A stretch of 25,558 nucleotides of DNA from a virus, in the IMG/VR virus record IMGVR_UViG_3300009175_000070, positions 1 to 25,558 of that record; one strand, given 5' to 3'. Made by a program: the position numbers and the translations under genes. Below are positions 2,830-20,512 of the stretch, in pieces (the stretch's first letter is position 1; each line of letters starts with the position of its first letter). Below the pieces are notes generated by a model. That model saw only the letters and a list, made by a program, of their open reading frames with translations. It was not told where the DNA came from and searched no databases.

Positions 2830-2866
2830 CAAAGATGTATCGATGAAAGAAAAGAGGAAAGGACAA
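2830..2866 (-). promoter_or_regulatory. Element-specific promoter motif, copy E (before lysis genes)
   Basis: On the - strand TTGTCCTTT (2858-2866), preceded by a long T run, lies 24 bases upstream of TTTG (2830-2833) in the context CATCTTTG. The spacing is identical to four other copies in the window. The -7-like box ends 12 bases before the ATG at 2818, implying a very short leader. It would drive the membrane protein, lysozyme and holin genes. Confidence 0.7.
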
Positions 2867-2906
2867 AAAAAAGAGGTGAATTTTTGATTCATATCCTTTT
2901 TTTGAT

Positions 2907-4874
2907 TTACAATTTGTATCCTTTGACTTCAGCGACACCAATATGATCGGTGAATATTTCAAAATTGAGTTCATCAATTAAGAATTCTCCTTCATCTGTC
3001 CTGTATTTTTTGCAGATATTTAGAATCAGAAATTGCAGAACATTGAGCGGAAGATTAAAAGTACCGGTGATGGGCAATCGATTTGCCCAGAATGGATTCC
3101 AGTATTTCCAAAAAGTTGGGAAAATGCAATTATACCAGGTGTCTGCGGTGGGTTCATATTCAAAAGTCAGTGGCTTATTACCATCAAGATAATACATATT
3201 TCCACCACTGTTTTTATTCTGTAATGGCTGATAAAACAAAAGCCTTGGGCTGAATTCCTGTGTTTTTGAAAGCCAGCCTGACATATTCCCGGGTTGATTG
3301 ACTTCCGGATATGAAATAAAGCCATGGGGGATATCATTTACTGATCCTTTCATTGTTGTTGCCCAGCTTGAATTTATTTCTTCCACTTCGTCACGACCAT
3401 ATTCATACCATCCATCCTGAAAACCAATGGATATTTCTGCCCATCCAAGAACATCATACGATTGTTGAATTTTGGTATTTGGATCTTCCACTGTTTGAGT
3501 GATCCACTTGTATTCAACAAATTTTTGTTCGGTTTCAATATACCGGATTTCATTGGGTTCCGGATTGGGAACTTTAGTTGCCAATTCAGACCAGGCATAA
3601 ATACGTATTCCTGTTTTGATATCATCCTTTCTGTCATTAAGATCATTAAAGCGTTCTTTGAAAACCATGTCTTTATCATCCTGTTTCCGGCAAAATTTAA
3701 GAGCTACATTTTTTTGTTCTCCAATGGCCCAATTGCCAATAAAATACTGATTTAAATCAGTTGCTGACTGCTTTAAAATTTCTTCCCTTGAATATACTTT
3801 AATGGTTCTGTTTGGCAAAAAATGAAAAACAACATTGAAAAGATTTTGGGTGGAAAGCAAAAGATCACCTACTTTCATTTTTGGTAAATGACGTATTGGA
3901 AGCGCATTGGAAAAAGTATAATTGCGATCGTAATAACTGATTCCAAGACCTAATGATCTTAAATCACCTTCATTTTCCCATTCATTTAAAAATGGACCTA
4001 AATACCATGGATCACCTGGCTTTAATAACGAATAGGTCTGATTTGTGATATCAAAATTGTTGTAAATAACAAGATTTTTAAGGGCCTGATGTGTTTTAAG
4101 GTAATTTTCAGAATCCAAAAACAGGCCACTGTCTTTCAAAGCCATATCAATGATATGGTTTAAGAAAAAGAACGGAGTGACTACATTGACTTTTCCTCCG
4201 GGTACCTCCGCATAAATATTGATATAATTGGCATTCATCTGAACTGTTCCATCATTGTTCAATGCATTGACCTGAGAAAAGACATCAGGATACACATTGA
4301 ATAGATAGGAAAGCAATTCGATTTCGTATTCTTCTTTTATCTCAACGGATGGGTTCAGTTTATCCGGAACCATGCGCGATTGTTTAATGATCTGGCCACG
4401 ATCTTTAAAAAATCCTGCGTTACGAAGGGGAAAGCAACAATACTGATCTGTCTGTGGATCATACACTGATTTATTTACAAATGGGATGGGAACAGAGAAG
4501 CAAGGAATATCCAGGATCGAGCGTTCTTTTTCTTTTTCTCCAAGGATGCCCAGCTGATCTATCAGCGAGGCTTCGTAATTTTCTGAATCAGCATTGGTTA
4601 TTTTCAGGGTACCTGAAATAAGCAAAACACCCGAAAAATGTACTGCAAAATCAGAAAATACCTGATCATCGGCAGTTCTGGATTTGGAAAAACGTTCAGG
4701 GTTTCCAAAGATGGACCGGGTATATTCATTGATTGGAAAAGTAATTCCAAGGCCATAGGCAGATGGAATTTTCTCAAAATCACACATTGGAGATTTGAAT
4801 GTCAATTGCATCGAGAAATCCGCAGGAACTGGAATATTATTTCCGTTTAGTGATAAGGTAAGCATATCAGACAC
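2907..4874 (-). CDS. Large tail/baseplate-associated protein (655 aa, putative)
   Basis: I do not recognise a catalytic domain. The protein is large, acidic and aromatic, without membrane segments or a signal peptide. An early stretch (DFEKIPSAYGLGITFPINEY, about residues 33-52) and a beta-rich N-terminal third resemble structural proteins of Bacteroidota phages. Its place between the fibre group and the lysis genes suggests a distal tail, baseplate or host-contact component. The start codon at 4874 is GTG; an ATG three codons on (4865, MLTLSLNG) is an equally plausible start. A strong terminator lies immediately upstream, so the gene needs its own promoter or read-through. Confidence is high that it is a real gene and modest for the role. 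Confidence 0.62.
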   Translation of the reverse strand: MSDMLTLSLNGNNIPVPADFSMQLTFKSPMCDFEKIPSAYGLGITFPINEYTRSIFGNPERFSKSRTADDQVFSDFAVHFSGVLLISGTLKITNADSENYEASLIDQLGILGEKEKERSILDIPCFSVPIPFVNKSVYDPQTDQYCCFPLRNAGFFKDRGQIIKQSRMVPDKLNPSVEIKEEYEIELLSYLFNVYPDVFSQVNALNNDGTVQMNANYINIYAEVPGGKVNVVTPFFFLNHIIDMALKDSGLFLDSENYLKTHQALKNLVIYNNFDITNQTYSLLKPGDPWYLGPFLNEWENEGDLRSLGLGISYYDRNYTFSNALPIRHLPKMKVGDLLLSTQNLFNVVFHFLPNRTIKVYSREEILKQSATDLNQYFIGNWAIGEQKNVALKFCRKQDDKDMVFKERFNDLNDRKDDIKTGIRIYAWSELATKVPNPEPNEIRYIETEQKFVEYKWITQTVEDPNTKIQQSYDVLGWAEISIGFQDGWYEYGRDEVEEINSSWATTMKGSVNDIPHGFISYPEVNQPGNMSGWLSKTQEFSPRLLFYQPLQNKNSGGNMYYLDGNKPLTFEYEPTADTWYNCIFPTFWKYWNPFWANRLPITGTFNLPLNVLQFLILNICKKYRTDEGEFLIDELNFEIFTDHIGVAEVKGYKL

Positions 4875-4889
4875 ATATTAGATTTAGAA

Positions 4890-4928
4890 AAAGAGGAATG
4901 AAAAAACAAAATTTCCCCATTCCTCTTT
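4890..4928 (-). terminator. Intrinsic terminator upstream of the 655-aa gene
   Basis: An 11-bp perfect inverted repeat (4890-4900 AAAGAGGAATG with 4918-4928 CATTCCTCTTT) encloses a 17-base loop. On the - strand the second arm runs into TTTTTC, a U tract. It lies 33 bases after the stop of the 154-residue gene and 15 bases before the next start, so it should end the fibre-group transcript. The first arm is partly duplicated further upstream, where CGAAAGAGGA occurs twice. Confidence 0.75.
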
Positions 4929-4961
4929 CGCATTTATTATCCTCTTTCGACTGAATATTAA

Positions 4962-5426
4962 TTATTCCTTCAGGAAATAACTGAGCACTTCAGCGACCGA
5001 CACGTCTTCAGCAGATTTTGGAAAATCTTTTTCAGTGAGTTCGGTATGAACATCAACTACGACAATTTCGTTCGAAATAGCTTCCGCAGCTTCATTATAT
5101 TCTTTGTTGCATTTCAGCCACTCTTTACCTTTTTCCCAGGTCAGTAATACGTGCGTATTAATCACATTGTCATTGACAACTTCGCCCTCTTTCATCGCGA
5201 CTTCCTGTGCCTTTTTGCTTTTAAGATCATTCAGCTCATCCAATAAGTCATCGTAATTATCAGGCTTGCATTTCTTTATTGCTTCTTCCGTATCATCCTG
5301 AATTCCCTTTAGTACGCGACTATCCCGACCTAAAGAAATGGCTTTGGTAAAATCCTTCATTCCTTTCACCTGTGACAGTCCACTGACAATAAATGGTACT
5401 TCCTTACGCTTGATTGATAACTTCAT
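4962..5426 (-). CDS. Hypothetical protein, 154 aa, downstream of fibre genes
   Basis: I do not recognise this protein. It is soluble, charged and largely helical, with a Lys/Asp/Glu-rich middle (DDLLDELNDLKSKKAQEVAM, about 59-78) and no membrane segment. It begins with a basic stretch (MKLSIKRKEVPF). It is the last gene of the group that starts behind the promoter motif at 5778-5814 and ends at the terminator 4890-4928. By position it could be a small structural, assembly-chaperone or decoration protein. Its leader is AT-rich (AAATCAAATCAG before the ATG) with no Shine-Dalgarno site, as for most genes here. Confidence 0.6.
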   Translation of the reverse strand: MKLSIKRKEVPFIVSGLSQVKGMKDFTKAISLGRDSRVLKGIQDDTEEAIKKCKPDNYDDLLDELNDLKSKKAQEVAMKEGEVVNDNVINTHVLLTWEKGKEWLKCNKEYNEAAEAISNEIVVVDVHTELTEKDFPKSAEDVSVAEVLSYFLKE

Positions 5427-5427
5427 C

Positions 5428-5459
5428 TGATTTGATTTAAATGTGATTATATCAAATCA
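5428..5459. repeat. 9-bp perfect inverted repeat between two small genes
   Basis: TGATTTGAT (5428-5436) and ATCAAATCA (5451-5459) are perfect reverse complements separated by 14 bases. They fill the 33-base gap between the 92-aa gene stop and the 154-aa gene start. The arm next to the ATG overlaps the leader of the 154-aa gene, so a hairpin could mask its ribosome landing site. It has no GC and no U tract, so it is not a terminator. Confidence 0.45.
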
Positions 5460-5738
5460 TTAAAAGCTTGCAATTTCTACCTGTACCGCTTGTAGTTGGG
5501 CAATGACAGATTCCATCTTTTCGACAACCGATGAAAGATTATCGACATTGTTCTGTCCTGAATTGATTGCCCCGGTTGCCCTGTTCAAATTGATATTGAA
5601 TGAACTGGAGTAATCATCCACTAATGGAACATTACAACTGATCGTATCGTCACTGACATTCACACCGACTTTTTTCCCATCTACAACAATCTCTACATTA
5701 AGAGAAGTCACTTTACATGATTTTAATTTGTTAAACAT
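5460..5738 (-). CDS. Hypothetical small protein, 92 aa, beta plus coiled coil
   Basis: I do not recognise this 92-residue protein. Its first half is beta-like with alternating hydrophobic residues (VTSLNVEIVVDGKKVGVNVS). Its C-terminal third is a probable coiled coil (NLSSVVEKMESVIAQLQAVQ). This layout suggests a small oligomeric structural or fibre-assembly protein. It is the first gene behind the promoter motif at 5778-5814 and is followed, after a gap holding an inverted repeat, by the 154-residue gene. The ATG at 5738 follows an A-rich leader of about 30 bases after the predicted transcription start. Confidence 0.6.
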   Translation of the reverse strand: MFNKLKSCKVTSLNVEIVVDGKKVGVNVSDDTISCNVPLVDDYSSSFNINLNRATGAINSGQNNVDNLSSVVEKMESVIAQLQAVQVEIASF

Positions 5739-5777
5739 GATTTTTGGTTTTTAAATGAATATTGAATTATTACGATT

Positions 5778-5814
5778 CAAATGTGGCTCTTTCTAAAATT
5801 CCGCAAAAGGACAA
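5778..5814 (-). promoter_or_regulatory. Element-specific promoter motif, copy D (before 92-aa gene)
   Basis: On the - strand TTGTCCTTT (5806-5814) lies exactly 24 bases upstream of TTTG (5778-5781, context CACATTTG). Unlike the other copies, its upstream flank is AAAAAC rather than a T run, and it forms part of a short hairpin (CAAGTT / AACTTG, 5812-5826) next to the stop of the preceding gene. It would drive the 92-aa and 154-aa genes. Confidence 0.68.
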
Positions 5815-5827
5815 GTTTTTAACTTGA

Positions 5828-6334
5828 CTATGGGAGAGTTGTAAATGCTAAAACACCGCTATATCTTGTGCCATAAGAATTCGTTGCATAAGCTCTTACC
5901 GAGTATCCTGTATTTGGTGTTAGTCCTGTCAATGTTCCTGAAAAGCTTCCCAGACCACTTCCACAAGCTAATATTGAATTTGATGTTGTAGGGAGTATCG
6001 CTACTGCATAACAAAATCCCTTTGCAGTAATGGCAGAGTCACCCTGACCGGTTACCGTACAGTTTGCCCCAGTGAATGTTGTTCTTCCGGGTGTACCGGT
6101 ATTAACGATACTTATAACCGGAGCCGGATCAGTTAATTCATTTTGTGAAGGGATGCGTTCACTTAGGGTTTGATTTCCGGATATTTTAACAATTGCAATT
6201 GCAAGAATTTGGGTACAACTCATACCCAAAGTGTCTGAATTCGTCCCTAGGTAAGTAAATGATTCTTGTGTTCCGGCTTTGGGTTGAAAAGGCATTAAAA
6301 ATGACTTGCAAACCATTCTAAGATCACCTGCCAT
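5828..6334 (-). CDS. Fn3/Ig-like repeat protein, probable fibre-tip or decoration protein
   Basis: This 168-residue protein ends in a fibronectin type III or Ig-like beta domain. The stretch GLTPNTGYSVRAYATNSYG (about 141-159) is the typical E/F-strand region of such domains in Bacteroidota surface proteins, and the GFCYAV segment (about 113-118) would be an earlier strand. The N-terminal 70 residues form a separate module that may attach to the fibre. The start at 6334 overlaps the end of the large fibre gene by 11 bases, indicating translational coupling. There is no signal peptide, which fits a virion or tail component better than a secreted host protein. A role in binding cell-surface glycans is inferred. 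Confidence 0.66.
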   Translation of the reverse strand: MAGDLRMVCKSFLMPFQPKAGTQESFTYLGTNSDTLGMSCTQILAIAIVKISGNQTLSERIPSQNELTDPAPVISIVNTGTPGRTTFTGANCTVTGQGDSAITAKGFCYAVAILPTTSNSILACGSGLGSFSGTLTGLTPNTGYSVRAYATNSYGTRYSGVLAFTTLP

Positions 6335-8732
6335 ATTGCTTTGCTTTTAAGTCATTAATTTGTCTTTTTAGATCCAATATTTCAATTTTCATTTTGTTTA
6401 CTTTTTCATCTTCTTCCTGTATGGCTTTGGTCAGCAATCCAAGATGATTACCAAAGTTGTGTGATTTCTGTTCCATACCAGAAAGCCAGGGATGTGTATC
6501 TTCAGCAATGAAACCTATTGCAAATGCACCATTGGTCTTTAGATTATATTGCATTATTTCAACCTCATTAAGAAATCTCAAAGCATTAAAATTAAAATTT
6601 GAAATATTGGTTTTTAACGCTCTGGATGAAGTGCGCCATATCTCCGAACCGGTTATTGTTGATGAAGCGACAATCGTTCCGGTAACGGATAAATTTGCCG
6701 TTGCAAATGCATTTGACGAGCTACCGTTGACAAGCGCATACGAATGGGTGTGTGTACTGATTAGTCCTGTAAGACTAGTTTCAATAGCTGCTTTGCTAAC
6801 AGTCACAAACGCATTATTGCCACTGATTTGCAATGGTACTGCAGCACCTGTTGCTGAAAAGTTTAAAGATACTCCTCCCAAGGCTCCGGTTGTTGCCACA
6901 GGCAGAGTATAGCTTCCACCCATAGCCACCCACGACCGTACTCCTGCTGAAGTCGATGAAAGTACATAACCTGTTGTTCCCGGGTTACCCAATGGCGCTT
7001 CATAACTATGAGTATGCGTAGAAATTGATCCTGTAAGTACGTATTCAACTACGGCCTTTGTCATGGATACATAGGGCGATTCATTGTATAAGCTAACGGG
7101 TAAACACCCGGCTGCAGGAGTTCCACCAGTTATTTGTATCCCTCCCCTGGTGCCATTGGCAGCCAGTGGAAGTGTATAACTTCCACCCATTGCTATCCAG
7201 GACCTAACCCCTGACGTAGTTGATGAAAGAACATAACCGTTTGTTCCGGGATTACCTAATGATGCCTCTTTGCCAGCAACACCGAAAACCCCATAACTAA
7301 AACTGAAATCAGTTGTATTAAGAATTCCTGAATATGTACCGTTTGAAACCTTACCTATACTGGCATAAGCAGAATCCCAATTACTTTGACTTGCAGTTGT
7401 AGGAATTAAGTACCCGCTTGTCATACTTAATATCTGATTGGAGACATCCAGCGATAGACCTGTTAAACTTGATAAGGTTAGATAAAAATGTGATTTGGTA
7501 TAAGCTGTATTCCAATTAGAGGAACTATCAGTAAGTATAGAATAAGCTCCCGAGGATGCCCCACGAAGCATGATTCCCTGACTTGCAAAATCGCTATCCA
7601 CCAAAACATCAGCATGTGATGTTTGTGAGGTCAGATATCCCATTGCTGTCCATGGCGTACCCGTTACATATCCCATTCCCGTCCACGGTGTACCGGTTAC
7701 ATAGGTATTTGTATCGTAGCTGATCACCCCAGCCGTTGACTTTACGAATCCAGTACCGGAAAGTGTTGCCTGATAACCAGAATGTGTATGACCTGTTAAC
7801 GAATATAGTCCAGAATGGTTTCCCCATCCAAAAGCTGTATTCCAGTTGGTAGAGTTATCAGTGAGTATAGAATAAGCACCCGATGATGCCCCACGAAGCA
7901 TGATCCCCTGACTTGCAAAATCGCTATCTACCAAAACATCAGCATGTGAGGTTTGTGAGGTCAGATAACCCATTCCTGTCCACGGAGTACCGGTCACATA
8001 TCCCATTCCTGTCCACGGTGTCCCGGTCACATAAGATCCGGCAACTTGTTTTAAGGCAAGCTGGTCGTACAAAAGTTTAGCTGAAGGATACTGTGTATCG
8101 GTCGAAGATCCTGAAATTGAAGTTACTTTATTTGAAGTCACTTCATATCCCATGCCTGTCCACGGAGTACCGGTCACATAACCCATTGCGGTCCACGGTG
8201 TGCCCGTCACATAACCCATTATGGTCCATGGTGTGCCTGTGACATACGATCCGGCTGCTTGTTTTAAGGCAAGCTGATCGTACAGAAGTTTTGCTGAAGG
8301 GTATTGTATATCGGTCGATGATCCTGAAATGGAGGTTACCTTATTCGTTGTCACTTCATATCCCATCCCCGTCCACGGAGTACCTGTTACATAACCCATT
8401 GCGGTCCATGGTGTACCGGTCACATACGATCCGGCTGCTTGTTTTAAGGCAAGCTGGTCATACAAAAGTTTTGCTGAAGGATACTGTATATCGGTCGAAG
8501 ATCCTGAAATGGAAGTTACTTTATTCGTTATCACTTCATAATTACTATGTGTGTGCGACAATGTAGCGTAACCGGCTCCATCTGATGTGGTTAATAACCG
8601 TAAATCGGTATTATTACCTATCTTCTGATATAAACCATCCGCTTTGGCAGCAAATCCAATAAAATTAGTACCTGGAACAGTTAGATTTGCCAGAGTTTGC
8701 AAATCTAACTGTGTAAGAAACTGTTTTGACAT
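6324..8732 (-). CDS. Tail fibre protein with repeats and C-terminal S74 chaperone
   Basis: This 802-residue protein should form a trimeric side fibre or tail spike shaft. The N-terminus (about 1-60) is probably the attachment part. Residues 66-410 are made of repeats: nine copies of an 11-residue unit YVTGTPWTxMG, three copies of a segment containing NKVTSISGSST and YPSAKLLYDQLALKQ, and two copies of a 45-residue unit containing VLVDSDFASQGIMLRG. Two further copies of a VLSSTxxGVRSWxAMGGSYT unit follow. The C-terminus (about 701-802) matches the Peptidase_S74 intramolecular chaperone: TSSRALKTNI with candidate S702/S703 and K707, GFIAEDTHP, then a terminal coiled coil. In that family the chaperone cleaves itself off after trimer assembly. 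It starts 3 bases after the preceding fibre gene. Confidence 0.9.
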   Translation of the reverse strand: MSKQFLTQLDLQTLANLTVPGTNFIGFAAKADGLYQKIGNNTDLRLLTTSDGAGYATLSHTHSNYEVITNKVTSISGSSTDIQYPSAKLLYDQLALKQAAGSYVTGTPWTAMGYVTGTPWTGMGYEVTTNKVTSISGSSTDIQYPSAKLLYDQLALKQAAGSYVTGTPWTIMGYVTGTPWTAMGYVTGTPWTGMGYEVTSNKVTSISGSSTDTQYPSAKLLYDQLALKQVAGSYVTGTPWTGMGYVTGTPWTGMGYLTSQTSHADVLVDSDFASQGIMLRGASSGAYSILTDNSTNWNTAFGWGNHSGLYSLTGHTHSGYQATLSGTGFVKSTAGVISYDTNTYVTGTPWTGMGYVTGTPWTAMGYLTSQTSHADVLVDSDFASQGIMLRGASSGAYSILTDSSSNWNTAYTKSHFYLTLSSLTGLSLDVSNQILSMTSGYLIPTTASQSNWDSAYASIGKVSNGTYSGILNTTDFSFSYGVFGVAGKEASLGNPGTNGYVLSSTTSGVRSWIAMGGSYTLPLAANGTRGGIQITGGTPAAGCLPVSLYNESPYVSMTKAVVEYVLTGSISTHTHSYEAPLGNPGTTGYVLSSTSAGVRSWVAMGGSYTLPVATTGALGGVSLNFSATGAAVPLQISGNNAFVTVSKAAIETSLTGLISTHTHSYALVNGSSSNAFATANLSVTGTIVASSTITGSEIWRTSSRALKTNISNFNFNALRFLNEVEIMQYNLKTNGAFAIGFIAEDTHPWLSGMEQKSHNFGNHLGLLTKAIQEEDEKVNKMKIEILDLKRQINDLKAKQYGR
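7503..8537 (-). repeat. Tandem coding repeats in the fibre shaft
   Basis: The DNA encoding fibre residues 66-410 holds nine near-identical 33-base units (for YVTGTPWTxMG, + strand cores such as GTCCACGGAGTACCGGTCAC), interspersed with three longer copies of about 110 bases and two of about 135 bases. Copies differ mostly at third codon positions. Such direct repeats can gain or lose units by recombination and so change shaft length. They are in-frame coding repeats, not CRISPR: units are contiguous, with no unique spacers of constant length. Confidence 0.88.
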
Positions 8733-8735
8733 CCT

Positions 8736-9863
8736 TTATCCGATTATGGTTGCGGTAAATTGTGCCGCTGTTGGAGCAACATTGAAATTAAAGGTCATTA
8801 CCGTTCCGCTGGTAGCAACCATTTCACATTCAACTTCATCAAACGGAGTCCCTGTCCTGTTCACTTGCGCCACAACAGGTCCACCTATTCCGTGCGTTAC
8901 AGCATAAGTCAAGGCCGCTCCGTCACCAATAGTCTGTGTAAATTTTTTGGCCAGCGATAATGTTCCAGTTGTCCCAAGTGCTTGTTTCAGCTTGAGTGGA
9001 GTTACTGCTTTCGCATTATCAGTCCCGGCTGTTACCTCTGCAGTGGTTGCAATTTGAATAATACCCTGTAACGTTTCCGTTGCAGAAACAATATCCGGAA
9101 TATCCTTATTCACGATTGTCCAGTGCGTTGATAGGGTAGGAGTATCCTGAACAGCAATGATCATATCCCCTGGTGATACAACAGTAGCGAAAAAAGTACC
9201 ACCGACAGTTACCACATAAGTCCATCCTTGCTTGATTCCTCCAATTGGAGTTGCATCAAGCATTGGAGTATTTGCTGCTGCATCGTAACCACCTTTGTAC
9301 AGTAATGCACCGGTAATTGTGGAGTTTACGGCAGCAATCAGAGCCTCAATCTTTGTCGATGAATACAATCCGGTAGAACTTGAAGCACCGTCATTAATAA
9401 CCCTGTGTTGCGTGGCATCGGCAATATGGGTATCAATCTGTGCATGGGTGTTGGTTCCCTTATTGGCCAGGGTTGTATGGTCAATCTGCGCACCGTCACC
9501 CCCATTGTGATCATGAGCATCTCCACCAGTTACTCCCTTTCCAATAGGTGCATAGGCTGCTGCTAATCCGGCTAAAATCGTGTCGATCTGAGCATGAGTG
9601 TTGGTTCCCTTGTTCAAGAGATTTACGTGATCAATAGCTGCTCCCTGGTCACCGCCCGTATGATCGTGAGTAGAGTCATTTAATACTAACCACGCTAAAG
9701 CTCCGGCCTTATTGTAGCCATAATACTTCAGCTTCTTGATAATATTCTGGTAGTATATTCTACCTTCAGCGTTAGTAGGATCAGCCGCTAAATTTTCAAG
9801 CCTTGCTTGAAGAAGCTGATTCAGCGCAAGGTCAAGGTCTGCTAAAAATGTACGTTTTGCCAT
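8736..9863 (-). CDS. Tail fibre protein with His-rich repeats (375 aa)
   Basis: This protein probably forms a second fibre or a proximal fibre segment. Residues 68-150 contain a duplicated unit of the kind HDHxGGDxxxxIDHxxLxNK followed by GTNTHAQID, common in phage fibres, where the HxH clusters can bind metal ions. A segment with VTAGTDNAKAVTPLKLKQAL (about 279-298) is also a recurrent phage fibre motif. The C-terminal 70 residues (KFTQTIGDGAALTYAVTHGI onwards) form a beta domain seen at the end of many tail proteins. Its N-terminus (FLADLDLALNQL) resembles that of the following 802-residue fibre, suggesting a shared attachment site. It lies 6 bases from the preceding gene and 3 from the next. 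Confidence 0.85.
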   Translation of the reverse strand: MAKRTFLADLDLALNQLLQARLENLAADPTNAEGRIYYQNIIKKLKYYGYNKAGALAWLVLNDSTHDHTGGDQGAAIDHVNLLNKGTNTHAQIDTILAGLAAAYAPIGKGVTGGDAHDHNGGDGAQIDHTTLANKGTNTHAQIDTHIADATQHRVINDGASSSTGLYSSTKIEALIAAVNSTITGALLYKGGYDAAANTPMLDATPIGGIKQGWTYVVTVGGTFFATVVSPGDMIIAVQDTPTLSTHWTIVNKDIPDIVSATETLQGIIQIATTAEVTAGTDNAKAVTPLKLKQALGTTGTLSLAKKFTQTIGDGAALTYAVTHGIGGPVVAQVNRTGTPFDEVECEMVATSGTVMTFNFNVAPTAAQFTATIIG

Positions 9864-9869
9864 TTCTGT

Positions 9870-10592: not shown

Positions 10593-10617
10593 ATATCTTT
10601 ATAAAATATTACCTCAA

Positions 10618-12186: not shown

Positions 12187-12223
12187 CGAAGTTGCATTTT
12201 GAGCACTGAGACTGAAAGGACAA
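12187..12223 (-). promoter_or_regulatory. Element-specific promoter motif, copy C (before 516-aa gene)
   Basis: On the - strand TTGTCCTTT (12215-12223), preceded by a T run, lies exactly 24 bases upstream of TTCG (12187-12190, context CAACTTCG). This copy deviates at one base in the -7-like box (TTCG for TTTG). It sits in the 59-base gap between the tape-measure stop and the 516-aa start, and would drive the tail-tip and fibre genes. Confidence 0.68.
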
Positions 12224-12227: not shown

Positions 12228-15200
12228 TCAGCTTAATCCGGACGTTGTTGTTTTTTGCCAGTTCTCTTTTTTGCGTTCATAGGTTGCAATTGAGATTTCT
12301 GGTTTCCAACTGTTAAGCTTATTGATGGATTCAATAAGTGCCAATGCCGTATCTTCACTCATGGAGCCTTCAGACTTTTGATTTTTGATTTTTATTTTGG
12401 ATGGCAGTTGGTTTTGTGAGGAATACCCTCCCGTTGCAAAACCTCTTTTTTGTGTGATCTGAAAAGCCTGGGGTGAGATGGTGTAACGGCCCTGTCTCAT
12501 TTGTTCCAGGCCTGCCACAAGGCTAGCGATCTGAGGGTTTTTCAGCATACCTGCCGGAATGACATATTCGCCTTTATGGACTGTGCCGGCCACCTGGTAT
12601 TTTTCACCATCTCCAGTATATCCACCTTCAGAAAATCCGGCGATAGTTTGTGCCACGATGGAGGCGATACTTCCCACGGCACTGGCTGTATTAATTGCTA
12701 CCCAGGGCATTCCTCCTGTCCATGGAAATGCTGCTACTGCTTTTGCATTGGCGATAGCAGTATTAAAGACTACCTGGCCGATGGCAGCGGCCTGTTGGAA
12801 AAGGAACAGGGCTTTACCCAAAGCTGTTTCTTTGCCCACCAGTTCGGCCAAACCACCAAAAAGTGTTTGTGCCGAATTGAACATGGCATCGCCGATTTCC
12901 TGACGGGCAGACAATTCATCGGTTTTTATTTTGATCAGGTTATCGGATAGTTTCTTTTGTGCCTGTGCGAGCTTGACTGCGTTCCCATCAGCATCAATAA
13001 CATCCTGATCATAGTTAGCCCTGGCCAGGTCCCGCTGGGCTTGAAAACCTTCCTCCTGTGTTTTTGCATTGGCTTCAGCCATCAGGGCATCATCCATTTC
13101 CTTTTTTTGAATGGTAGCCTTATCCAGATCGGACATAGTTTTTTCATGTTCCGTTTTCTTCTCCGCAATGATACCATTGGTGGTTTCATTGAGTTTTATT
13201 TCCTTCTCATTGAGATCTTTCTTAACAATCAACTTTTTCTGCAAGGCTTCGAGTTCTTCTTTCCACCTTTCTTCCTCAATAGCCTTTTGTTTATCGATTC
13301 CTTCTTTCAGATTGGAAACTTTAGCGTTAGCCAGTTCTTTTTCCGCTTCTTCCAATAGCTTGTGAACCTTTTCGGTTGCTTCAAGCTTTTTGGCTTCAGA
13401 GAGTGCATAGGCTTCTTCATATTCTTTACTGCCATTTTTATATGCTTTGGCTTTCTGGTCCAGGAACTTGATTTCCTGATCCAACAGATCGGCATCATAC
13501 TGTGCATCGGAAGTCAATCCTTCAGCATGTCGCTTTTTTATGGAAGCGATTTCCTTGCTATTGGCAGCTTCAATTTGCTCGATTCGTTTTTTTACTTGCT
13601 TATCATCCTCCCGACCTTCGCGGGAAGTGCCCAAACTATTTAATTTATCGATTTCATTTTGGACAGCTTCAGCCCTTGCATTTCGTGATGCAACTTCTTC
13701 GGGTGTTACTGCAATCTCGGCTTTTATTGCAGCCAATTCTTCTTCTTTTTGTTTGATTAGATCCTGATCAGGTAATTTATCCTCTTTACTATGGCTTAAT
13801 AGCATATTAGCCGTGGCCTGGCTTTGAGTAATAGTTATTAACTTTTCCTTTTGAAGATTCAGTTCCTTCTGCCTGTCGCTTAAATTCTGCGCGGCTGACA
13901 TAGCGTTTAAAGAATAATTGGCAGATACATTCCCTAATGATAAAACAGCATTTTTTGCCTTTTGCCAATAAGTCAAATCTGCTCCTTTTCCTGAATTCAA
14001 ATCGAGAAGCTCTTTTTCTATTTCAACCAGTTTTTCTTTTGCTGCCTGAACTCTCGCATTCTCAAGCAATGATTCTGTATATTCTTTTACAGCTTCTGCA
14101 GCTTTTTTAGTAGATATATTTTCAAGGGTCAGGGATCCTAAATATTTTGGGGAAATGGCATTTAATTCCCGGATAGCATCCAGTCTTTCCTGTTTTGATA
14201 GCTTTTCATTTTTTGCTAGGCTCAGTAAAGTTTCAATTTTTACTTTTTCTTCTACAATATTTTTCTGTGCTTCCAGGTTAATATCATTCAATAATAACTG
14301 AGCTTTTTGAGCTGCGGTCAATTGGCCCGAATACATATATAATCCCACGGTAAGTGCTGTTATTGCTGTTATAACAAGACCGATAGGATTAGCCATTAAT
14401 GCACCGCTGAATATGCGGAACTGCAATGAAGCTAAAGCAAGATTTCCTTTGAGCAATGCCAGACCTGCATTATAAAGGGCAATACCTGCAAATTGAGCGC
14501 GATAGGCCAGATCCTGCAATTTTCCCAAAATAATGCTGGTTAATTTCTCTTTGTTTTTTCTGGCTTCCCAAATGGCTTCAATCTTAATCCAGGTTGTATA
14601 AGCGATAATTGAAGCTGTTGTGGTGACAATAGTTGCTTTATATTTTATAAAGAAATCTATTCCAGCAGAAACGATTTTAACGAAATATGAAAAACCACTA
14701 GTACTGATTACCAGTGCCGGAGCAAGTTTTTCACCCAGATCAATGGCCATTAAATTTAAACGGTTTACTGCCTGAGCCAGTTTTGCTGCATGTGTATCGG
14801 AATTAATGGAAGCCTGTTGCATGGCAACATTGGTTCCGGTCAATGCCTGTGTAAAATAGTCGTATCTGGCAATATTGCTTGTCAATATTGTACCTACCGA
14901 AAGGTTTCTCTTTCCAAAAATACTGATCAGCAGGTTATCCTTTTCCATCGCTGTGTTTTTGGCATCCATTTTGGATTTTAATTCGACGATAGCATCCCTC
15001 ATATTAAATGCTCCGCTCACATAACCAAGGTTTGCGGCTTTCAGGCTGACCAGTGAAGTTTTAAATTGGGTACCGGCTTCAGCTCCTTTAAGCTGATGTT
15101 CTCCCAATGTTTCCAAAACTCCGATTGTTTCTTCGAGAGTAAGATTTGAATTGTTGGCTACCGTTCCACATTTTGCAAGTGATTCCGTTAATTGGGGAAC

Positions 15201-15911
15201 CAGGGCGCTACCCTGAAGGGCTCCTGCGGAGAATGCATTAATAATCCTGGTTGATTCAAATGACTTCATGCCAAATTGATTCATAGCTGCAGCCACAGCT
15301 TCCACAGCAGGTGTGGTTTCAATTCTTGCTGCCTGTGCCAGGATCAGTGCCGATTTGGTTACTTCGGCTAATGCTTCCTTATCTTTAAGCAGTTCCGGAC
15401 GTGCTGATCCCATTAAGGTAAAAGCATCAACAATCTCACTGGCGTTTTTTGTCAGGCGGATTCCTCCATCAAGGATTGTTGTTGAAAATTCTTTCGCTTT
15501 ATCTCCGAGCCATTTTAGATTATCTCCAGACAGTCCGGTTAGTGCGGAAAGATTAGCCAGACGGGATTCAAAATCCATAAAGGCTTTTACTGTTCCCCGA
15601 ACGGCAAAAACCAAACCTGTTAGTGTTGCAATAACTCCCATGGCTAACGCCTGGTAACGGTTAAAAACATCACCAATTTTTTTCATGGACCATCCTCTTT
15701 CTACGCCAGCCAGGTCTGCTCTGTGTTGGTCAAGAATTGCTTTTAACGATCTTATTTTTGCAGTTTGTGCCAGGTATTCTTTTGAACCTATGGTCATTCG
15801 TGCCTGTGCGTTGATCAGTTTGTTCATTTCCGCACGGATACTTGCCACGTCATTTGTTACTTCTTTGCCGTTTATATACAGGTTTATTCGACGGGTATAG
15901 GATTGTGCCAT
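12228..15911 (-). CDS. Phage tail tape-measure protein
   Basis: This protein should set tail length and line the tail tube. From the ATG at 15911 it has 1227 residues. The N-terminal third carries a TP901-type core: FESRLANLSALTGLSGDNLK, then TTPAVEAVAAAMNQFGM and the GAEAGTQFKTSLVSLKAANL stretch. Hydrophobic segments in the middle include one ending in NPIGLVITAITALTVGLYMY. A long charged coiled coil (roughly residues 550-960) follows, then an Ala/Gly-rich region and a C-terminal tail. The frame extends to an ATG at 15944, but that codon overlaps the -7-like box of promoter copy B, so MAQSYTRRIN at 15911 is the better start. At about 1.5 angstrom per residue for tape measures, the tail would be long and flexible, siphovirus-like. 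Confidence 0.93.
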   Translation of the reverse strand: MAQSYTRRINLYINGKEVTNDVASIRAEMNKLINAQARMTIGSKEYLAQTAKIRSLKAILDQHRADLAGVERGWSMKKIGDVFNRYQALAMGVIATLTGLVFAVRGTVKAFMDFESRLANLSALTGLSGDNLKWLGDKAKEFSTTILDGGIRLTKNASEIVDAFTLMGSARPELLKDKEALAEVTKSALILAQAARIETTPAVEAVAAAMNQFGMKSFESTRIINAFSAGALQGSALVPQLTESLAKCGTVANNSNLTLEETIGVLETLGEHQLKGAEAGTQFKTSLVSLKAANLGYVSGAFNMRDAIVELKSKMDAKNTAMEKDNLLISIFGKRNLSVGTILTSNIARYDYFTQALTGTNVAMQQASINSDTHAAKLAQAVNRLNLMAIDLGEKLAPALVISTSGFSYFVKIVSAGIDFFIKYKATIVTTTASIIAYTTWIKIEAIWEARKNKEKLTSIILGKLQDLAYRAQFAGIALYNAGLALLKGNLALASLQFRIFSGALMANPIGLVITAITALTVGLYMYSGQLTAAQKAQLLLNDINLEAQKNIVEEKVKIETLLSLAKNEKLSKQERLDAIRELNAISPKYLGSLTLENISTKKAAEAVKEYTESLLENARVQAAKEKLVEIEKELLDLNSGKGADLTYWQKAKNAVLSLGNVSANYSLNAMSAAQNLSDRQKELNLQKEKLITITQSQATANMLLSHSKEDKLPDQDLIKQKEEELAAIKAEIAVTPEEVASRNARAEAVQNEIDKLNSLGTSREGREDDKQVKKRIEQIEAANSKEIASIKKRHAEGLTSDAQYDADLLDQEIKFLDQKAKAYKNGSKEYEEAYALSEAKKLEATEKVHKLLEEAEKELANAKVSNLKEGIDKQKAIEEERWKEELEALQKKLIVKKDLNEKEIKLNETTNGIIAEKKTEHEKTMSDLDKATIQKKEMDDALMAEANAKTQEEGFQAQRDLARANYDQDVIDADGNAVKLAQAQKKLSDNLIKIKTDELSARQEIGDAMFNSAQTLFGGLAELVGKETALGKALFLFQQAAAIGQVVFNTAIANAKAVAAFPWTGGMPWVAINTASAVGSIASIVAQTIAGFSEGGYTGDGEKYQVAGTVHKGEYVIPAGMLKNPQIASLVAGLEQMRQGRYTISPQAFQITQKRGFATGGYSSQNQLPSKIKIKNQKSEGSMSEDTALALIESINKLNSWKPEISIATYERKKENWQKTTTSGLS

Positions 15912-15941: not shown

Positions 15942-15978
15942 CAAATATCAGAAGCATGGTTAAAAGCAGAAAGGACAA
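15942..15978 (-). promoter_or_regulatory. Element-specific promoter motif, copy B (before tape measure)
   Basis: On the - strand TTGTCCTTT (15970-15978), preceded by TTTTTC, lies exactly 24 bases upstream of TTTG (15942-15945, context GATATTTG). It occupies the 122-base gap upstream of the tape-measure gene. A transcript starting a few bases after the TTTG box would have a leader of roughly 25 bases to the ATG at 15911. Confidence 0.7.
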
Positions 15979-16033: not shown

Positions 16034-16483
16034 TTATCTGATGTTCATATTGGTTGCATTTACGGCGACATCTGCATTGATATTTGCAATTTCATCGGCA
16101 AGTTTTGGAACATTTTTATCCAGGATAGGATTAAACCATTCCACTGCTACACGCTCTTGTTTTTTAGGCGGATTTACAGCTGTTCGGATAACAAATCCAT
16201 TTCCTGAGGCTTCATAACCTCGTCCGACTCCTTTATGAACGAATACTCCGTGACGTTCGAACTGAAAAGTAACTGAATTGATTACATTATAGCTTTTCCT
16301 GTATTTTGAATCAATCGAATTAGCCAGTTTCCTTTCAATTTGTTTTCCATGGTCCCTGATAACCATTGACTCTTCTTTCCCATCTGTAAACCATCGAGCG
16401 GAAGATCGGAGTGACGCTTTTATTTTTGGTATCCATCTTAATATGGCCGTATTTTGATTGCTTAAAAGCTGTGGATCATTCAT
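16034..16483 (-). CDS. Small connector/tail-completion-like protein (149 aa)
   Basis: I do not recognise a family with certainty. The protein is basic in its first two thirds, with a central strand-turn region FERHGVFVHKGVGRGYEASG (about 75-94). This recalls HK97-gp10-type tail-completion proteins, which join neck and tail. The C-terminal part (NPILDKNVPKLADEIANINA, about 117-136) is helical. It is the last gene of the group that starts at 20459 and lies just upstream of the tape measure, the usual place for tail-completion, terminator and tube genes. It could be one of these. Confidence 0.58.
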   Translation of the reverse strand: MNDPQLLSNQNTAILRWIPKIKASLRSSARWFTDGKEESMVIRDHGKQIERKLANSIDSKYRKSYNVINSVTFQFERHGVFVHKGVGRGYEASGNGFVIRTAVNPPKKQERVAVEWFNPILDKNVPKLADEIANINADVAVNATNMNIR

Positions 16484-16496
16484 AGCATGTGATGGT

Positions 16497-17006
16497 TTAA
16501 TTGTCGGTTAACCAGACATTTTTGTCAGGTTCTGTTAGATGGACCGAGCTGATGGAATAAGTATAGCGGATTCCGTAATGGTTATCCATATCCGAGGCGA
16601 TCAGGGTAGCTTCTACCTGGGCAAAATCAAAATCCTGTATTACCGGGACCTTTCGGGATTTTTTGTCTTGTTTGATTTTGGATAAAATATCATCGCCGAT
16701 GGATTCCATCGCATTCCATACCTGTTGGATCTTGTCATAATCCGATTTATCGGATATTTTATCGAGTAAGAGAAAAGCGCCGTGGCGGTTTTTGATCAGG
16801 TTATCACTTTTATTGTCTGTAAAGTCATAACTATACCCTTCCAATACCAGGAAGGGTGTAGTGACGTTGGTGCGGTTTATTCCGGCCAATACTTCGTCTA
16901 TTTCCATCCGGAAGAAATGTTTTTCGCTGTCGCTGTGCCCGATGCTTTTATGCAATCGGGCAAGCTTTTCGAAGTATGCGATCAGATCTGAGAAATTTGC
17001 GGACAT
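16497..17006 (-). CDS. Hypothetical protein, 169 aa, tail-terminator position
   Basis: I do not recognise this protein. It is soluble, mixed alpha/beta, with a helical N-terminus (ANFSDLIAYFEKLARLHKSI) and a C-terminal strand pair (NHYGIRYTYSISSVHLTEPD, about 141-160). Such a layout would suit a tail-terminator or neck protein, but no motif proves it. It sits between the 262-aa gene (3-base gap) and the 149-aa gene (13-base gap) in one tightly packed transcript, which supports a structural or assembly function. Confidence 0.58.
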   Translation of the reverse strand: MSANFSDLIAYFEKLARLHKSIGHSDSEKHFFRMEIDEVLAGINRTNVTTPFLVLEGYSYDFTDNKSDNLIKNRHGAFLLLDKISDKSDYDKIQQVWNAMESIGDDILSKIKQDKKSRKVPVIQDFDFAQVEATLIASDMDNHYGIRYTYSISSVHLTEPDKNVWLTDN

Positions 17007-17009
17007 GGG

Positions 17010-17798
17010 TTAATATTTATTTGATTTTGAGCTAAGCGATTCCTTGTATTTACGTGTCATATAGGAAAAGATGGTATTTACCGGCTTCTCTGCCCAGAGG
17101 TGATCATGAATAATATCATCACCCACAAAATTCTGGAATACCTTGATCCAGTTGTTTGGATTTCTTTTGGCTTTTACTCCGTCTGTAGCAATGTCCAATT
17201 GTTGAACTTTTTGAAAAATTAACGGATAGGCTTCTGTAAGCCATTCATGCATCAACTGATAGTTTAGAACAATGGACTGGCGGGTATTTTCATCCAAATT
17301 TCCTATGAGTTTATATCGGTCTGCGATTATTTTTTCATCGAACTTTTCATTTTTACGCAGATAAAGCGATGCGATGAATTTACTCAGATCATCCGGATCT
17401 TTCGAATCCTGGTAACTTGAAAAATAGCTGTCGCAAAAGATAAACTGGCCGAATGAAACTCCTTTGAGTTTTCCCTGGGGTGCGAAGAGGGCAGGGGAAA
17501 TGATTGTGGGATAGACTTTGCGAATGATGAATTGGTGGTAAAGCTTATGGTTTGCAACGAATTCAAGGATCTCCATGAGCTTGAAACGCTCATACGCAGA
17601 CATTTTTTTCAGGATTCCAAGTCTCAGACCTGTCATTTCCTTCAGGAAGGAGAGCTCCGTACCTTTATCGCTATAAAGTTCGATGATCGCCCTGAGTTGA
17701 CCAGCATTCACTTCACCCCAATTCTGAGGCATGTTTGTTTTTTTCTTCCGTTTCCAGGGAAAGGTTAAGGAGCGGTGAATTACGTTTATTGTGATCAT
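17010..17798 (-). CDS. Hypothetical protein, 262 aa, in connector gene group
   Basis: I do not recognise this protein. It is basic, largely helical and has no membrane segment or signal peptide. Helical stretches include GQLRAIIELYSDKGTELSFL (about 33-52) and RFKLMEILEFVANHKLYHQF (about 71-90). The ATG at 17798 overlaps the stop of the upstream gene by 4 bases (ATGA), indicating translational coupling. An internal ATG 22 codons later (MPQNWGEVNAG) is possible but would lose that coupling. By position it could be a tail-assembly chaperone or adaptor, but I see no overlapping frameshift partner of the kind usually found in front of tape measures. Confidence 0.58.
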   Translation of the reverse strand: MITINVIHRSLTFPWKRKKKTNMPQNWGEVNAGQLRAIIELYSDKGTELSFLKEMTGLRLGILKKMSAYERFKLMEILEFVANHKLYHQFIIRKVYPTIISPALFAPQGKLKGVSFGQFIFCDSYFSSYQDSKDPDDLSKFIASLYLRKNEKFDEKIIADRYKLIGNLDENTRQSIVLNYQLMHEWLTEAYPLIFQKVQQLDIATDGVKAKRNPNNWIKVFQNFVGDDIIHDHLWAEKPVNTIFSYMTRKYKESLSSKSNKY

Positions 17799-18805
17799 GC
17801 CCAGAATGTTTTTTTATCGCTGTTATCCCTTCGAAGGACATTGCCGGGGGTACCGGCAAAGTCCGGAAATGTTGAACGGTTTGCTATGAGGAAAGATTTC
17901 AGCATTTCGATATAACTTTCTGCAAACATGCGGTTACGTTTGACAAGTAATGCCACACGGTCAGCATCGGCAGGGCTGATGATACGGTCTGACAAGTTGA
18001 TAGCTGCGGAAGCCTCAAAATACAGGCCTTTTTCCATGAGGTCAGCTCCTGATTCTTCCATAAGAAGGGCGGTTGCCAGGTATGCCAATGGTTTTTGGAT
18101 ATAGGGAATGATCTTCAGGATATCCTTATCCGGAGTTTGTTTGATCATTTCGGCTTTGATCTTTTCCAATAGAGCAGTTCCCAACAATGGACGGATAGAT
18201 ATATCTTCCACCAGTTTGAATTGCGGGATCAGGCGAAGGAAGGTGAGCCTGCTTTTATTGACGAAAAGAATTGAGTCAAGGGTTTTTGTATCCGGTATAA
18301 AAGCGGCTTTCCGGATGGTCCAGCTGGGTGTACTTTTGAAATCTGTGAAATACTCAATGTTTTCTTCGAGTGTTTCAAGAACTTCATCCAAAGCGTTGAA
18401 GCCATTTGTTTTGAAATGGTTTCGAAGATCATCCTCCTGGTATTTGAAAAGGGCTTTTACTGTGGTGCTTTCTGTACGTTTAAAGCCACTGTCAGAGATA
18501 GTGGCGTTCAGAACCTGAAATCCGGACCAATAGGCCAGATAGACCAGGGCTTTCTGAACGGAAACGATCAGTTTGCTTTGAGCGGCCAATAGTGCTACTG
18601 CCTTTTCATCGGGATTGTCTTCCGTTGGAGCTGTTGCAGTCAGTTTGGTATATGCTGACTGCAGGGTTTCCAGTAATTCTGCTCCGAGAATAGGTTTAAT
18701 AAATGCCGATTCTGCGGATATAAGATGTGGTTTAAGGCGGTTGAATTCGGTGTCTTTACCTATGGCAACGAATTCCTGAATTTCGGTAATAGTGTTGATC
18801 AGCAT
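17795..18805 (-). CDS. DUF6712-like phage structural protein (336 aa)
   Basis: This protein resembles the DUF6712 proteins found in Bacteroidota phage-like gene blocks; I assign this from memory of the family pattern. It looks like an internal duplication: an N-terminal half beginning with ITEIQEFVAI and containing FIKPILGAELLETLQSAYTK, and a C-terminal half with LRLIPQFKLVEDISIRPLLG and similar leucine-rich helices. Both halves have the same I-x-P-x-L-G-x-x-L-L-E pattern. It starts at the base where the portal-like gene stops and overlaps the next gene by 4 bases, so all three are translationally coupled. Its position after the portal suggests a head-tail connector or adaptor. The exact role is unknown. 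Confidence 0.68.
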   Translation of the reverse strand: MLINTITEIQEFVAIGKDTEFNRLKPHLISAESAFIKPILGAELLETLQSAYTKLTATAPTEDNPDEKAVALLAAQSKLIVSVQKALVYLAYWSGFQVLNATISDSGFKRTESTTVKALFKYQEDDLRNHFKTNGFNALDEVLETLEENIEYFTDFKSTPSWTIRKAAFIPDTKTLDSILFVNKSRLTFLRLIPQFKLVEDISIRPLLGTALLEKIKAEMIKQTPDKDILKIIPYIQKPLAYLATALLMEESGADLMEKGLYFEASAAINLSDRIISPADADRVALLVKRNRMFAESYIEMLKSFLIANRSTFPDFAGTPGNVLRRDNSDKKTFWA

Positions 18806-20172
18806 CAGGATAAAACTTTTTTGGTTCCGGCTCCGGTATCAAGAGTAGTGAGAATGGTGTTTCTAAAACGCCATTCCACGGTCCCGTCCCCGCCATTGAA
18901 ACGATTCATAATTTCTATTGGGTCGGTAATGGTCTGGCGATCAAGCCAGGCATTAGCGACATTGACCAGATAAGCTTCACGGATATTGCTTCCTCCCGAA
19001 TTGCCTGCGTATGCGCCACCGGGCATACCGGCACCCATCACATTGGGGTTTACCATGATGGCAAACATGATTTCTGAGTTTGCAGCTGCCGAAGTAATGA
19101 GGTTTTGTTCGTTGTTCAGCTTATTATTTAGCGGTTCAATTTTCCATTGTTCTTCAGCTTTCCCGTTTATTGGATTGATTTCGAAGAATGTAAAGATTGG
19201 TTTATCGGCATTATCGGTACCACAAAGATTGGCTTCTATTGAATTCATATAGTCGGTGATCGCTGCTTTCCGCAAATCAGTTGTTTCGAATTCATTTGCA
19301 GGAAACTGGCGATCCCAAAATGCGTAAGGAATTTGGATGTGCCATTTCCAGGTGATTTGGTTGGTATACGCTTTTTTTAGGAAAGAGGGAACCATTCCGG
19401 CGATATCAACCCATCCGGCCAGATACGAGGCGTACCAGAGGGGGGAAGAATAATATTCGTTGGTACTCCATGAATCGCGGATAGCCATCATAAAGGATTT
19501 GCCTTTTAGTTTATTAGCATATCGTCTGCGTTGAAGATCCGCATAAGGATCGAAATCATCAAGAAGTTCATGGACTGTGCATTCGGCTTCGCCTGGCGTA
19601 TCTGGCCATTTTCCCGATACTACGACCTGTTCAATCACTCCGTTGGCATTGGCAACGGTCAAACGGCAATATTTGGCGTTGACAGGATTAATTCCCACGA
19701 TTTGATCACCTGCATCATTGAGAATAAATTGGACAAAGCCGATTCCTAGTTTTAGGTAATCACGCAATACGACTTCCATGTATCTGCGTGTCATTCGGCT
19801 ATTGGCCAATACGGTTAATGTCTGATCTTTCGGTGCTGCAAGGATTTCATTTCCATCAGCATCATATCCGGTCACTATACAGGGGAAAATACCCTGACCG
19901 AGAGTAAAGTTTCGTGTAAAGCGAAGACCGGTATTCAGGGTGCCAACTTTTCCAATAATAGCATCCGCATCGGATGGCCAGGTGTTACTGCTTCCCCAGC
20001 TTGCTATGGTGATATTACCCACAGTTGTTTTATCCAGATTGATTTCAGCCGGTTTAGGGGTGGAAGTCAATTTGGATTTGGGTTCAGGAACACCCGTTGT
20101 TTTTCCCAGGAAACTTTTTCCGGAAGCCAGCAAAGGAACGCCTAGTTTGTTTAAAAGGATATCTGTCATCAC
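18805..20172 (-). CDS. Portal-like protein (455 aa)
   Basis: This protein resembles phage portal proteins, which form the dodecameric ring through which DNA enters and leaves a capsid. Portal-like features are a beta-rich region with GINPVNAKYCRLTVANANG (about 173-191), a central helical segment (YASYLAGWVDIAGMVPSFLK), and a C-terminal stretch around SEIMFAIMVNPNVMGAGMPG followed by a Gly/Ser-rich loop and a helix NIREAYLVNVANAWLD. It overlaps the 96-aa gene upstream by 4 bases and the DUF6712-like gene downstream by 1. Remarkably, no terminase or capsid gene flanks it, although these normally accompany a portal. A non-portal adaptor with a portal-like fold is the alternative. Confidence 0.72.
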   Translation of the reverse strand: MMTDILLNKLGVPLLASGKSFLGKTTGVPEPKSKLTSTPKPAEINLDKTTVGNITIASWGSSNTWPSDADAIIGKVGTLNTGLRFTRNFTLGQGIFPCIVTGYDADGNEILAAPKDQTLTVLANSRMTRRYMEVVLRDYLKLGIGFVQFILNDAGDQIVGINPVNAKYCRLTVANANGVIEQVVVSGKWPDTPGEAECTVHELLDDFDPYADLQRRRYANKLKGKSFMMAIRDSWSTNEYYSSPLWYASYLAGWVDIAGMVPSFLKKAYTNQITWKWHIQIPYAFWDRQFPANEFETTDLRKAAITDYMNSIEANLCGTDNADKPIFTFFEINPINGKAEEQWKIEPLNNKLNNEQNLITSAAANSEIMFAIMVNPNVMGAGMPGGAYAGNSGGSNIREAYLVNVANAWLDRQTITDPIEIMNRFNGGDGTVEWRFRNTILTTLDTGAGTKKVLS

Positions 20173-20459
20173 ATTTTTACTTTAGATCCATTCCAATAGA
20201 CCAAACCATCAATATGTACCGGAGTGACATGACCGCTGGCGTTACCACCTTCATCAACGGGAAGGATACCACGCATACGATTTTCCTTCATGTTCATTTT
20301 AAGACCTGTTGCTACTGCCCGGGGAACGAAAACAAGTTCACCGTCTTTTTTTACGAACTTGATAGAAAAGACCCGTTGTTTTCCATCAGGAGTTTCCTTT
20401 GCTTCGAATTCCTTCAGTACAAGATTGCGTCGGATGTATTCTGTTTTCACTAATGACAT
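20169..20459 (-). CDS. Small basic protein heading the structural transcript (96 aa)
   Basis: I do not recognise a named family. This 96-residue, Lys/Arg-rich, beta-like protein begins MSLVKTEYIRRNLVLKEFEA and contains FVKKDGELVFVPRAVATGL (about 35-53). It is the first gene behind promoter motif copy A and overlaps the portal-like gene by 4 bases, so the pair is translationally coupled. A small accessory to the portal-like protein, or a DNA- or RNA-binding regulator, would fit, but neither is shown. The leader before the ATG (AAAATCAAATCC) is A-rich with no Shine-Dalgarno site. Confidence 0.6.
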   Translation of the reverse strand: MSLVKTEYIRRNLVLKEFEAKETPDGKQRVFSIKFVKKDGELVFVPRAVATGLKMNMKENRMRGILPVDEGGNASGHVTPVHIDGLVYWNGSKVKM

Positions 20460-20475
20460 GGATTTGATTTTCTAA

Positions 20476-20512
20476 CAAATCTAATTTTAGTGGTTCAGTG
20501 GCGAAAGGACAA
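20476..20512 (-). promoter_or_regulatory. Element-specific promoter motif, copy A (start of structural block)
   Basis: On the - strand TTGTCCTTT (20504-20512), preceded by a T run, lies exactly 24 bases upstream of TTTG (20476-20479) in a perfect Bacteroidota -7 box, TAGATTTG. The box ends 17 bases before the ATG at 20459. It would drive the transcript from the 96-aa protein to the 149-aa protein. Its T run doubles as the U tract of the RadC terminator. Confidence 0.72.

Follow-up and report, generated by a model that had tools for sequence, protein, structure and literature searches.

What turns on, together, the groups of genes that lie behind repeated copies of one short motif in a prophage? 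The question is raised by IMG/VR virus record IMGVR_UViG_3300009175_000070, a prophage fragment of 25,558 bases that was analysed as a whole and is called the window below. The 9-mer TTGTCCTTT is present in the window as five exact intergenic copies, all on the - strand (20504-20512, 15970-15978, 12215-12223, 5806-5814 and 2858-2866), with none on the + strand. A preliminary description of this DNA had proposed that the copies belong to promoters which coordinate the structural genes under an element-specific activator, anti-terminator or alternative sigma factor. Our analysis indicated that the five motifs are almost certainly late promoters and that promoters of this kind very likely depend on a phage-encoded factor. 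Comparison with relatives pointed to f11, a protein family encoded upstream of the first late promoter in full-length relatives, as the probable factor.

All five copies have 24 bases between the 9-mer and the downstream box, which is TTTG except in the copy at 12215 (TTCG), and the second base of the preceding tetrad was always A (TAGATTTG, GATATTTG, CAACTTCG, CACATTTG, CATCTTTG). Every copy heads a gene or an operon on the - strand. Late promoter 1 (20476..20512) combines TTGTCCTTT at 20512-20504 with TAGATTTG at 20483-20476; its +1 is predicted at about 20471 (A), it precedes a gene of 96 amino acids (aa) and the portal operon, and a terminator-like hairpin of -22.1 kcal/mol lies immediately upstream. 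Late promoter 2 (15942..15978, TTGTCCTTT and GATATTTG, predicted +1 at about 15937, A) stands before the tape measure gene. Late promoter 3 (12187..12223) has the weaker -7 box CAACTTCG next to TTGTCCTTT, a predicted +1 at about 12182 (A), and lies before the 516-aa and fibre genes (ATG at 12168). Late promoter 4 (5778..5814, TTGTCCTTT and CACATTTG), with a predicted +1 at about 5773 (G), precedes the 92-, 154- and 655-aa genes (ATG at 5738). Late promoter 5 (2830..2866, TTGTCCTTT and CATCTTTG, predicted +1 at about 2825, A) precedes a 149-aa gene (ATG at 2818), the endolysin gene and a holin-like gene, and has a hairpin of -12.0 kcal/mol upstream.

The motif was not equally frequent at random: the composite of 9-mer, spacing and box was observed five times in the window and 0 times in all 1000 window shuffles, and the bare 9-mer averaged 0.54 copies per shuffle, with at most 4 (dinucleotide-preserving shuffles, n = 1000). 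Once a single mismatch was permitted, the 9-mer by itself was not enriched in the window (17 versus 13 expected). The strength of the signal therefore lies in the exact core combined with its spacing, strand and position.

Relatives of the window were gathered by their portal protein, which retrieved 151 loci: 71 from viral contigs and 80 from bacterial genomes, the latter mostly of Bacteroidales. Exact composites on the late-gene strand versus the opposite strand numbered 31:0 around the portals of viral contigs and 28:0 around those of bacterial genomes. Around portal loci, neighbouring spacings gave no exact composite on the late strand and one reverse match, and neither of two scrambled cores produced any exact composite. 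At least one site was present in about 105 of 148 portal-bearing loci if each element could have one mismatch. An unbiased de novo tally of the 6-mers found at set distances ahead of A..TTTG recovered TGTCCC in 21 loci versus 0 on the opposite strand and, in the remaining loci, TGTCCT (70 versus 1 on the opposite strand). Since TGTCCC occupies the same distance in loci without TTGTCCTTT, the core is TGTCC at a fixed distance, accompanied by clade variants. The idea that some relatives lack the motif was accordingly rejected, as those relatives use TGTCCCA or TGTCCTA at identical spacing. The scan of related phage blocks that had been suggested for this composite thus revealed conservation throughout the group, on the late strand and at a single spacing.

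A motif-only scan of a collection of viral contigs by exact pattern was also carried out. About half of the sites listed were chance matches, so only strand-coherent contigs with multiple sites were used from it. Among the matches listed, 55 of 120 sites lay in contigs encoding proteins of this phage group, and many contigs contained 3-9 sites, all on one strand. Contigs filed under Sulfuricurvum (L199) and Candidatus Falkowbacteria (L214) contain portal genes of this group (75% and 60% identical) and are probably misbinned.

To describe the promoter, sites were selected by NTGTCC-N24-A..TTTG only, yielding 211 forward versus 4 reverse sites, of which 137 were non-redundant. The consensus of these 137 sites is NTGTCC(T/C)(T/A)T at about -41 to -33, TAHHTTTG at -12 to -5 and A at +1. 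At positions outside the selection, T was present at -12 in 77% of sites, G at -9 in 5%, and A at exactly the fifth base after TTTG in 71%; the median distance from TTTG to the start of an open reading frame is 20 nucleotides (nt). Mapping in Flavobacterium johnsoniae has described a -7 box TAHHTTTG from which transcription starts 4-5 nt further on, together with a -33 element that is weak (PMC6847099). The likeness to the Bacteroidota -7 box was therefore borne out, both by the TAHHTTTG features and by the predicted +1 A. The accompanying proposal, that the usual TTTG at -33 is replaced by the conserved motif, held only in part. TTT was mostly found at -35 to -33, followed by C or T (G in 10% of sites), with the conserved TGTCC upstream; a strong additional box (about -41 to -33) is indeed unusual, but the loss was overstated because the -33 element of Bacteroidota is weak anyway (PMC6847099).

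As in activator-dependent phage promoters of the Mu C or T4 MotA type, the shared element stands at a fixed distance from a host-type -10-like box in front of several late operons. The 45 nt upstream of the sites folded with a mean of -10.2 kcal/mol versus -6.0 kcal/mol for shuffles, and 59 of 136 sites reached -10 kcal/mol or lower versus 13 of the shuffled means, indicating that many sites directly follow a terminator-like hairpin. No conserved transcribed element was found downstream of the promoter in the 137-site set.

The exact composite occurred 53 times in 295 random Bacteroidia genomes, versus about 99 for a backwards-read control (our count). At this chance level the composite is not a host promoter, and the possibility that it is equally common in ordinary host promoters was dismissed. 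By contrast, 14 genomes with such prophages contained 28 matches, mostly clustered in prophage contigs, when controls gave about 7 (our count); in genome G009, five of five matches lay inside one prophage. Collectively, the conservation throughout the family, the rigid spacing, the strand bias, the -7 box with its +1 A and the lack of the motif in host promoters agree with the proposal of coordinated late promoters under element-specific control.

The preliminary description had recognised no regulator in the window, and we agree; the full-length relatives supply the candidate f11. This family of about 160-200 aa (the conserved gene of full relatives encodes about 190 aa) has no annotation (example L321:9998-10558, alignment A4). 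The search for a regulator gene co-occurring with the motif led to an iterated profile, by which every contig holding the region (29 of 29, motif-only picks included) has an f11-like frame on its late strand; reversed-sequence decoys scored no better than E 0.0099. Four contigs without f11, the window among them, are fragments or cut pieces and stand outside the 29; the f11 gene of the window's phage would lie upstream of where the contig ends. In the full relatives all sites lie downstream of f11, permuted contigs excepted. The usual order is f11, a short gene, then the ClpP protease and capsid genes, and the first late promoter is often found between f11 and the protease/capsid genes. The Microcystis phage Mae-Yong924-2 has a different gene order, with f11 among early genes behind the helicase gene, apart from the head genes and upstream of the first site. 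A promoter class with rigid geometry, restricted to this phage group and co-occurring with f11, is evident from the sequences compared.

The reverse test started from f11, whose profiles picked 8 of the 295 random genomes. In three of the five f11 genomes read further, arrays ran on the f11 strand (5:0, 4:0 and 3:0), and f11 genome G033 had TGTCCTA variants at 4:1. Among the matches listed, 10 of 11 contigs with a single motif match, probably due to chance, were without f11; the exception, G346, encodes f11 together with the portal, adaptor and tape measure proteins of this group. An AlphaFold2 model of f11 was of fair quality (pLDDT 83.7). Its most conserved stretch is predicted as helix, loop, helix (IxxFxxxYxIxE...DxIxKxxxR, Arg invariant) and may represent a helix-turn-helix.

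Several observations weigh against f11 as the activator. Although encoded in every full relative read, f11 had no match in Pfam, PHROG or NCBIfam, and Foldseek of its model against the PDB gave no fold match. The loop is long for a helix-turn-helix, clear covariation of the f11 helix with the box variants was not established, and genome G090 has an f11-like match (E 8e-9) and no motif array. Moreover, joint presence is expected of any genes from one phage group and cannot by itself separate f11 from the portal or adaptor genes. At similar sensitivity, portal and adaptor were found in 29 of the 29 contigs, protease, TerS-like protein and TerL in 28, capsid in 26-27, primase-like and other early genes in at most 22, and RadC in 8. 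We preferred f11 over portal and adaptor because of its position and its lack of a virion role.

Other genes were considered as regulators and rejected. RadC was present in 9 of 11 contigs with the motif and 0 of 3 without it among the first 14 contigs, and later in only 8 of 29 full relatives. The TerS-like and 95-aa helix-turn-helix-like genes (fam13, fam17) lie inside late units, and fam17 was found in only 19 of 29. Two further families were recorded in passing: fam8 (L277:5792-6373 and relatives), a gene of the late packaging unit that matches the endonuclease PHROG phrog_16945 and is present in 15 of 29 full relatives, and fam0 (e.g. L277:1592-2068 and 4272-4856), two clustered, related copies of which flank the protease/capsid genes and have no useful annotation.

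Among an activator, an anti-terminator and an alternative sigma factor, the evidence favours a DNA-binding activator. A replaced sigma factor is disfavoured because the -7 box stays of the housekeeping type, and a single anti-terminated transcript because each unit has its own promoter, many of which abut a terminator-like hairpin. A phage alternative sigma factor, possibly f11 or an unseen gene, that reads the TGTCC box together with the -7 box would explain the rigid 24-base spacing, which is typical of two elements under one sigma factor, and the overlap of the TGTCC box with the -33 position. Yet alternative sigma factors usually alter both promoter elements; here the downstream box is still the host consensus TAHHTTTG, with T at -12 and G avoided at -9, and the conserved genes yielded no sigma-like family, which makes this explanation unlikely. 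We give still less credit to the motif as a loading or utilisation site for anti-termination instead of an initiation site. Many copies do lie right behind terminator-like hairpins with T runs (59/136 at -10 kcal/mol or lower), but the -7 box and +1 A at a fixed distance and the separate promoter for each unit argue against it, lambda Q-type systems having a single late promoter; of the explanations weighed here it is the least probable.

The sites could also be ordinary housekeeping promoters in AT-rich gaps, with an extra box that adds strength and no dedicated factor. The -7 box alone suits the primary sigma factor, and the T-rich upstream sequence could act like an UP element. However, TGTCC is invariant at one spacing across very distant phages, host promoters have hardly any -33 motif and do not use the box, and constitutive late promoters would presumably be harmful in a lysogen; we regard this reading as improbable. 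Much the same holds, with marginally lower credence, for a host-encoded Bacteroidota activator or alternative sigma factor exploited by the phages. The hosts in which the motif occurs span several families and classes, which a conserved host factor would allow, but the chance level in 295 host genomes and the clustering in prophages of lysogens leave no host regulon for it.

Activator-dependent late promoters, with f11 as the most likely activator, are therefore the reading that we put forward, and as a whole we hold it to be probable. The window's phage would be a temperate siphophage of Bacteroidota and the five motifs its late promoters. Host RNA polymerase with the primary sigma factor would read the ordinary -7 box TAHHTTTG, and productive initiation would need a phage-encoded DNA-binding activator bound to the NTGTCC(T/C)(T/A)T box (about -41 to -33), either next to the position of sigma region 4 or on top of it. 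This activator would most likely be f11, with NTGTCCTTT DNA as its binding target. We infer the dependence on an activator, the role of f11 in it and the late timing: once the prophage is induced, f11 would build up and turn on every late unit (head, packaging, portal, tail, lysis) at the same time, with many units insulated from the preceding one by a terminator running into the promoter.

The gene layout of the window is as follows. An integrase gene lies at one end, followed on the - strand by holin-like, endolysin, fibre, tape measure, adaptor and portal genes; RadC, a HipA-like pair and unknown genes occupy the other end. The unit behind promoter 1 (18805..20459, -, ATG at 20459) starts with the 96-aa gene (20169-20459) and the portal gene (18805-20172; phrog_11226, E 2.6e-5; TIGR01540 portal_PBSX, E 1.2e-4, which is under the cut-off of that model). 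The remainder of the portal operon (16034..18805, -) contains a DUF6712 adaptor-like gene (17795-18805, E 5.8e-27), then 262-, 169- and 149-aa genes, in an order kept in relatives. The tape measure gene (12228..15911, -, likely ATG at 15911) matched PhageMin_Tail (E 8e-23) and phrog_28 (E 6e-34). The tail and fibre unit (5828..12168, -) consists of 516-, 240-, 375-, 802- and 168-aa genes with a Peptidase_S74 chaperone domain and tail-fibre PHROGs. It is followed by the 92-, 154- and 655-aa genes (2907..5738, -), the last of which is kept behind the tape measure gene in relatives, and by the lysis unit (1293..2818, -) with the 149-aa gene, the endolysin (1770-2303; Glyco_hydro_108, E 9e-20) and the holin-like gene (1293-1751; phrog_3427 holin, E 2.7e-5). 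The RadC-like gene (20567..21109, -; RadC, E 1.7e-38) lies just 5' of promoter 1, outside its control.

Portal, adaptor and tail genes are present and no terminase or major capsid gene was found in the window. In full relatives the terminase and capsid genes lie upstream, on the far side of a variable cargo region that separates TerL from portal; the contig therefore probably breaks off within this region (on the 20567-25558 side of the window) and is not a capsid-less element. The cargo region of the window includes a HipA-like toxin in two frames (21433-22846; HipA N-terminal domain, 131 aa, and HipA_C, 337 aa) and a 646-aa protein without Pfam match (22965-24905), possibly a defence gene.

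Named phages allow a comparison with the Helgolandviridae. The window portal shares 27% identity with the annotated portal of a member of this family, Polaribacter phage Leef_1 (MT732473), and the late-gene order is shared in full relatives; the distance is too large for formal placement, and the window is a fragment. Leef_1 has the order f11, short gene, ClpP protease/capsid. Its f11 homologue was detected at the same place in the gene order by hmmsearch (E 6e-10), and this uncharacterised protein was the only Foldseek match of f11 in the viral library BFVD (E 6.9e-4). TGTCCTTTTT boxes stand in Leef_1 at identical spacing to the -7 box, TGTCCTTTT boxes precede genes 2, 4, 5, 13, 41 and 46, and 4 forward versus 0 reverse sites have exactly this spacing to a degenerate -7 box. 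Leef_1 differs in its flavobacterial host and in these degenerate -7 boxes, such as CATCTTGC. The Leef_1 paper does not describe promoters, and the word 'promoter' is absent from its main text (PMC8776804). The LuxR annotation of Leef1_22 had no Pfam support and was set aside. Mae-Yong924-2 and two human faecal phage records had 2, 3 and 2 sites, respectively, all on the late strand. Mae-Yong924-2 (L352, MZ570427) is recorded as a Microcystis phage, yet its TGTCC box with AnnTTTG is of Bacteroidota type; its true host may be a Bacteroidota companion of the culture.

Late-gene activation in temperate phages of Bacteroidota, a dominant gut and marine phylum, is hardly known, and the signal marks late operons in prophages and viral contigs that lack annotation. 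In full-text searches of a literature library, no paper turned up that describes a motif or switch of this kind. On balance, we lean towards regarding these promoters as a class without earlier description, present in temperate siphophages of several Bacteroidota classes and activated by f11. If so, f11 and its box would represent the first late-gene switch known from this phage group, and the pair might be transferred to Bacteroides as an orthogonal, phage-derived inducible expression system.

Three known systems invite comparison. As with the C protein of phage Mu, the activator gene would lie upstream of the late genes, and several late promoters keep the -10 element and lean on an upstream activator site; in the phage Mu record, the late promoter immediately behind gene C adjoins a terminator, as at many sites here. 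Unlike in Mu, the host phylum, the -7 box and the activator box are different, and f11 has no detectable similarity to C (the hhalign probability was 0.2, and there was no Mor/C Pfam match). The middle promoters of T4, with their MotA box and sigma appropriation, likewise keep the host -10 element and replace the -35 element by an activator box at a fixed distance (PMC6755090). The MotA box is centred at -30, whereas the box here is centred at about -37; it serves middle genes in T4 and late genes here, f11 was again without similarity to MotA (hhalign probability likewise 0.2), and no AsiA-like partner was identified here. Since homology to C and MotA was tested and not found, f11 would work like these proteins rather than being one of them. 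The promoters share with the Bacteroidota primary-sigma promoter (-33 TTTG / -7 TAnnTTTG) the TAHHTTTG box and a start, predicted here, 4-5 nt downstream (PMC6847099), and differ from it by a strong added TGTCC box at about -40 to -36, at invariant spacing and only in this phage group. If confirmed, they would show how an activator works with the divergent Bacteroidota sigma factor, a primary sigma made dependent on the TGTCC box.

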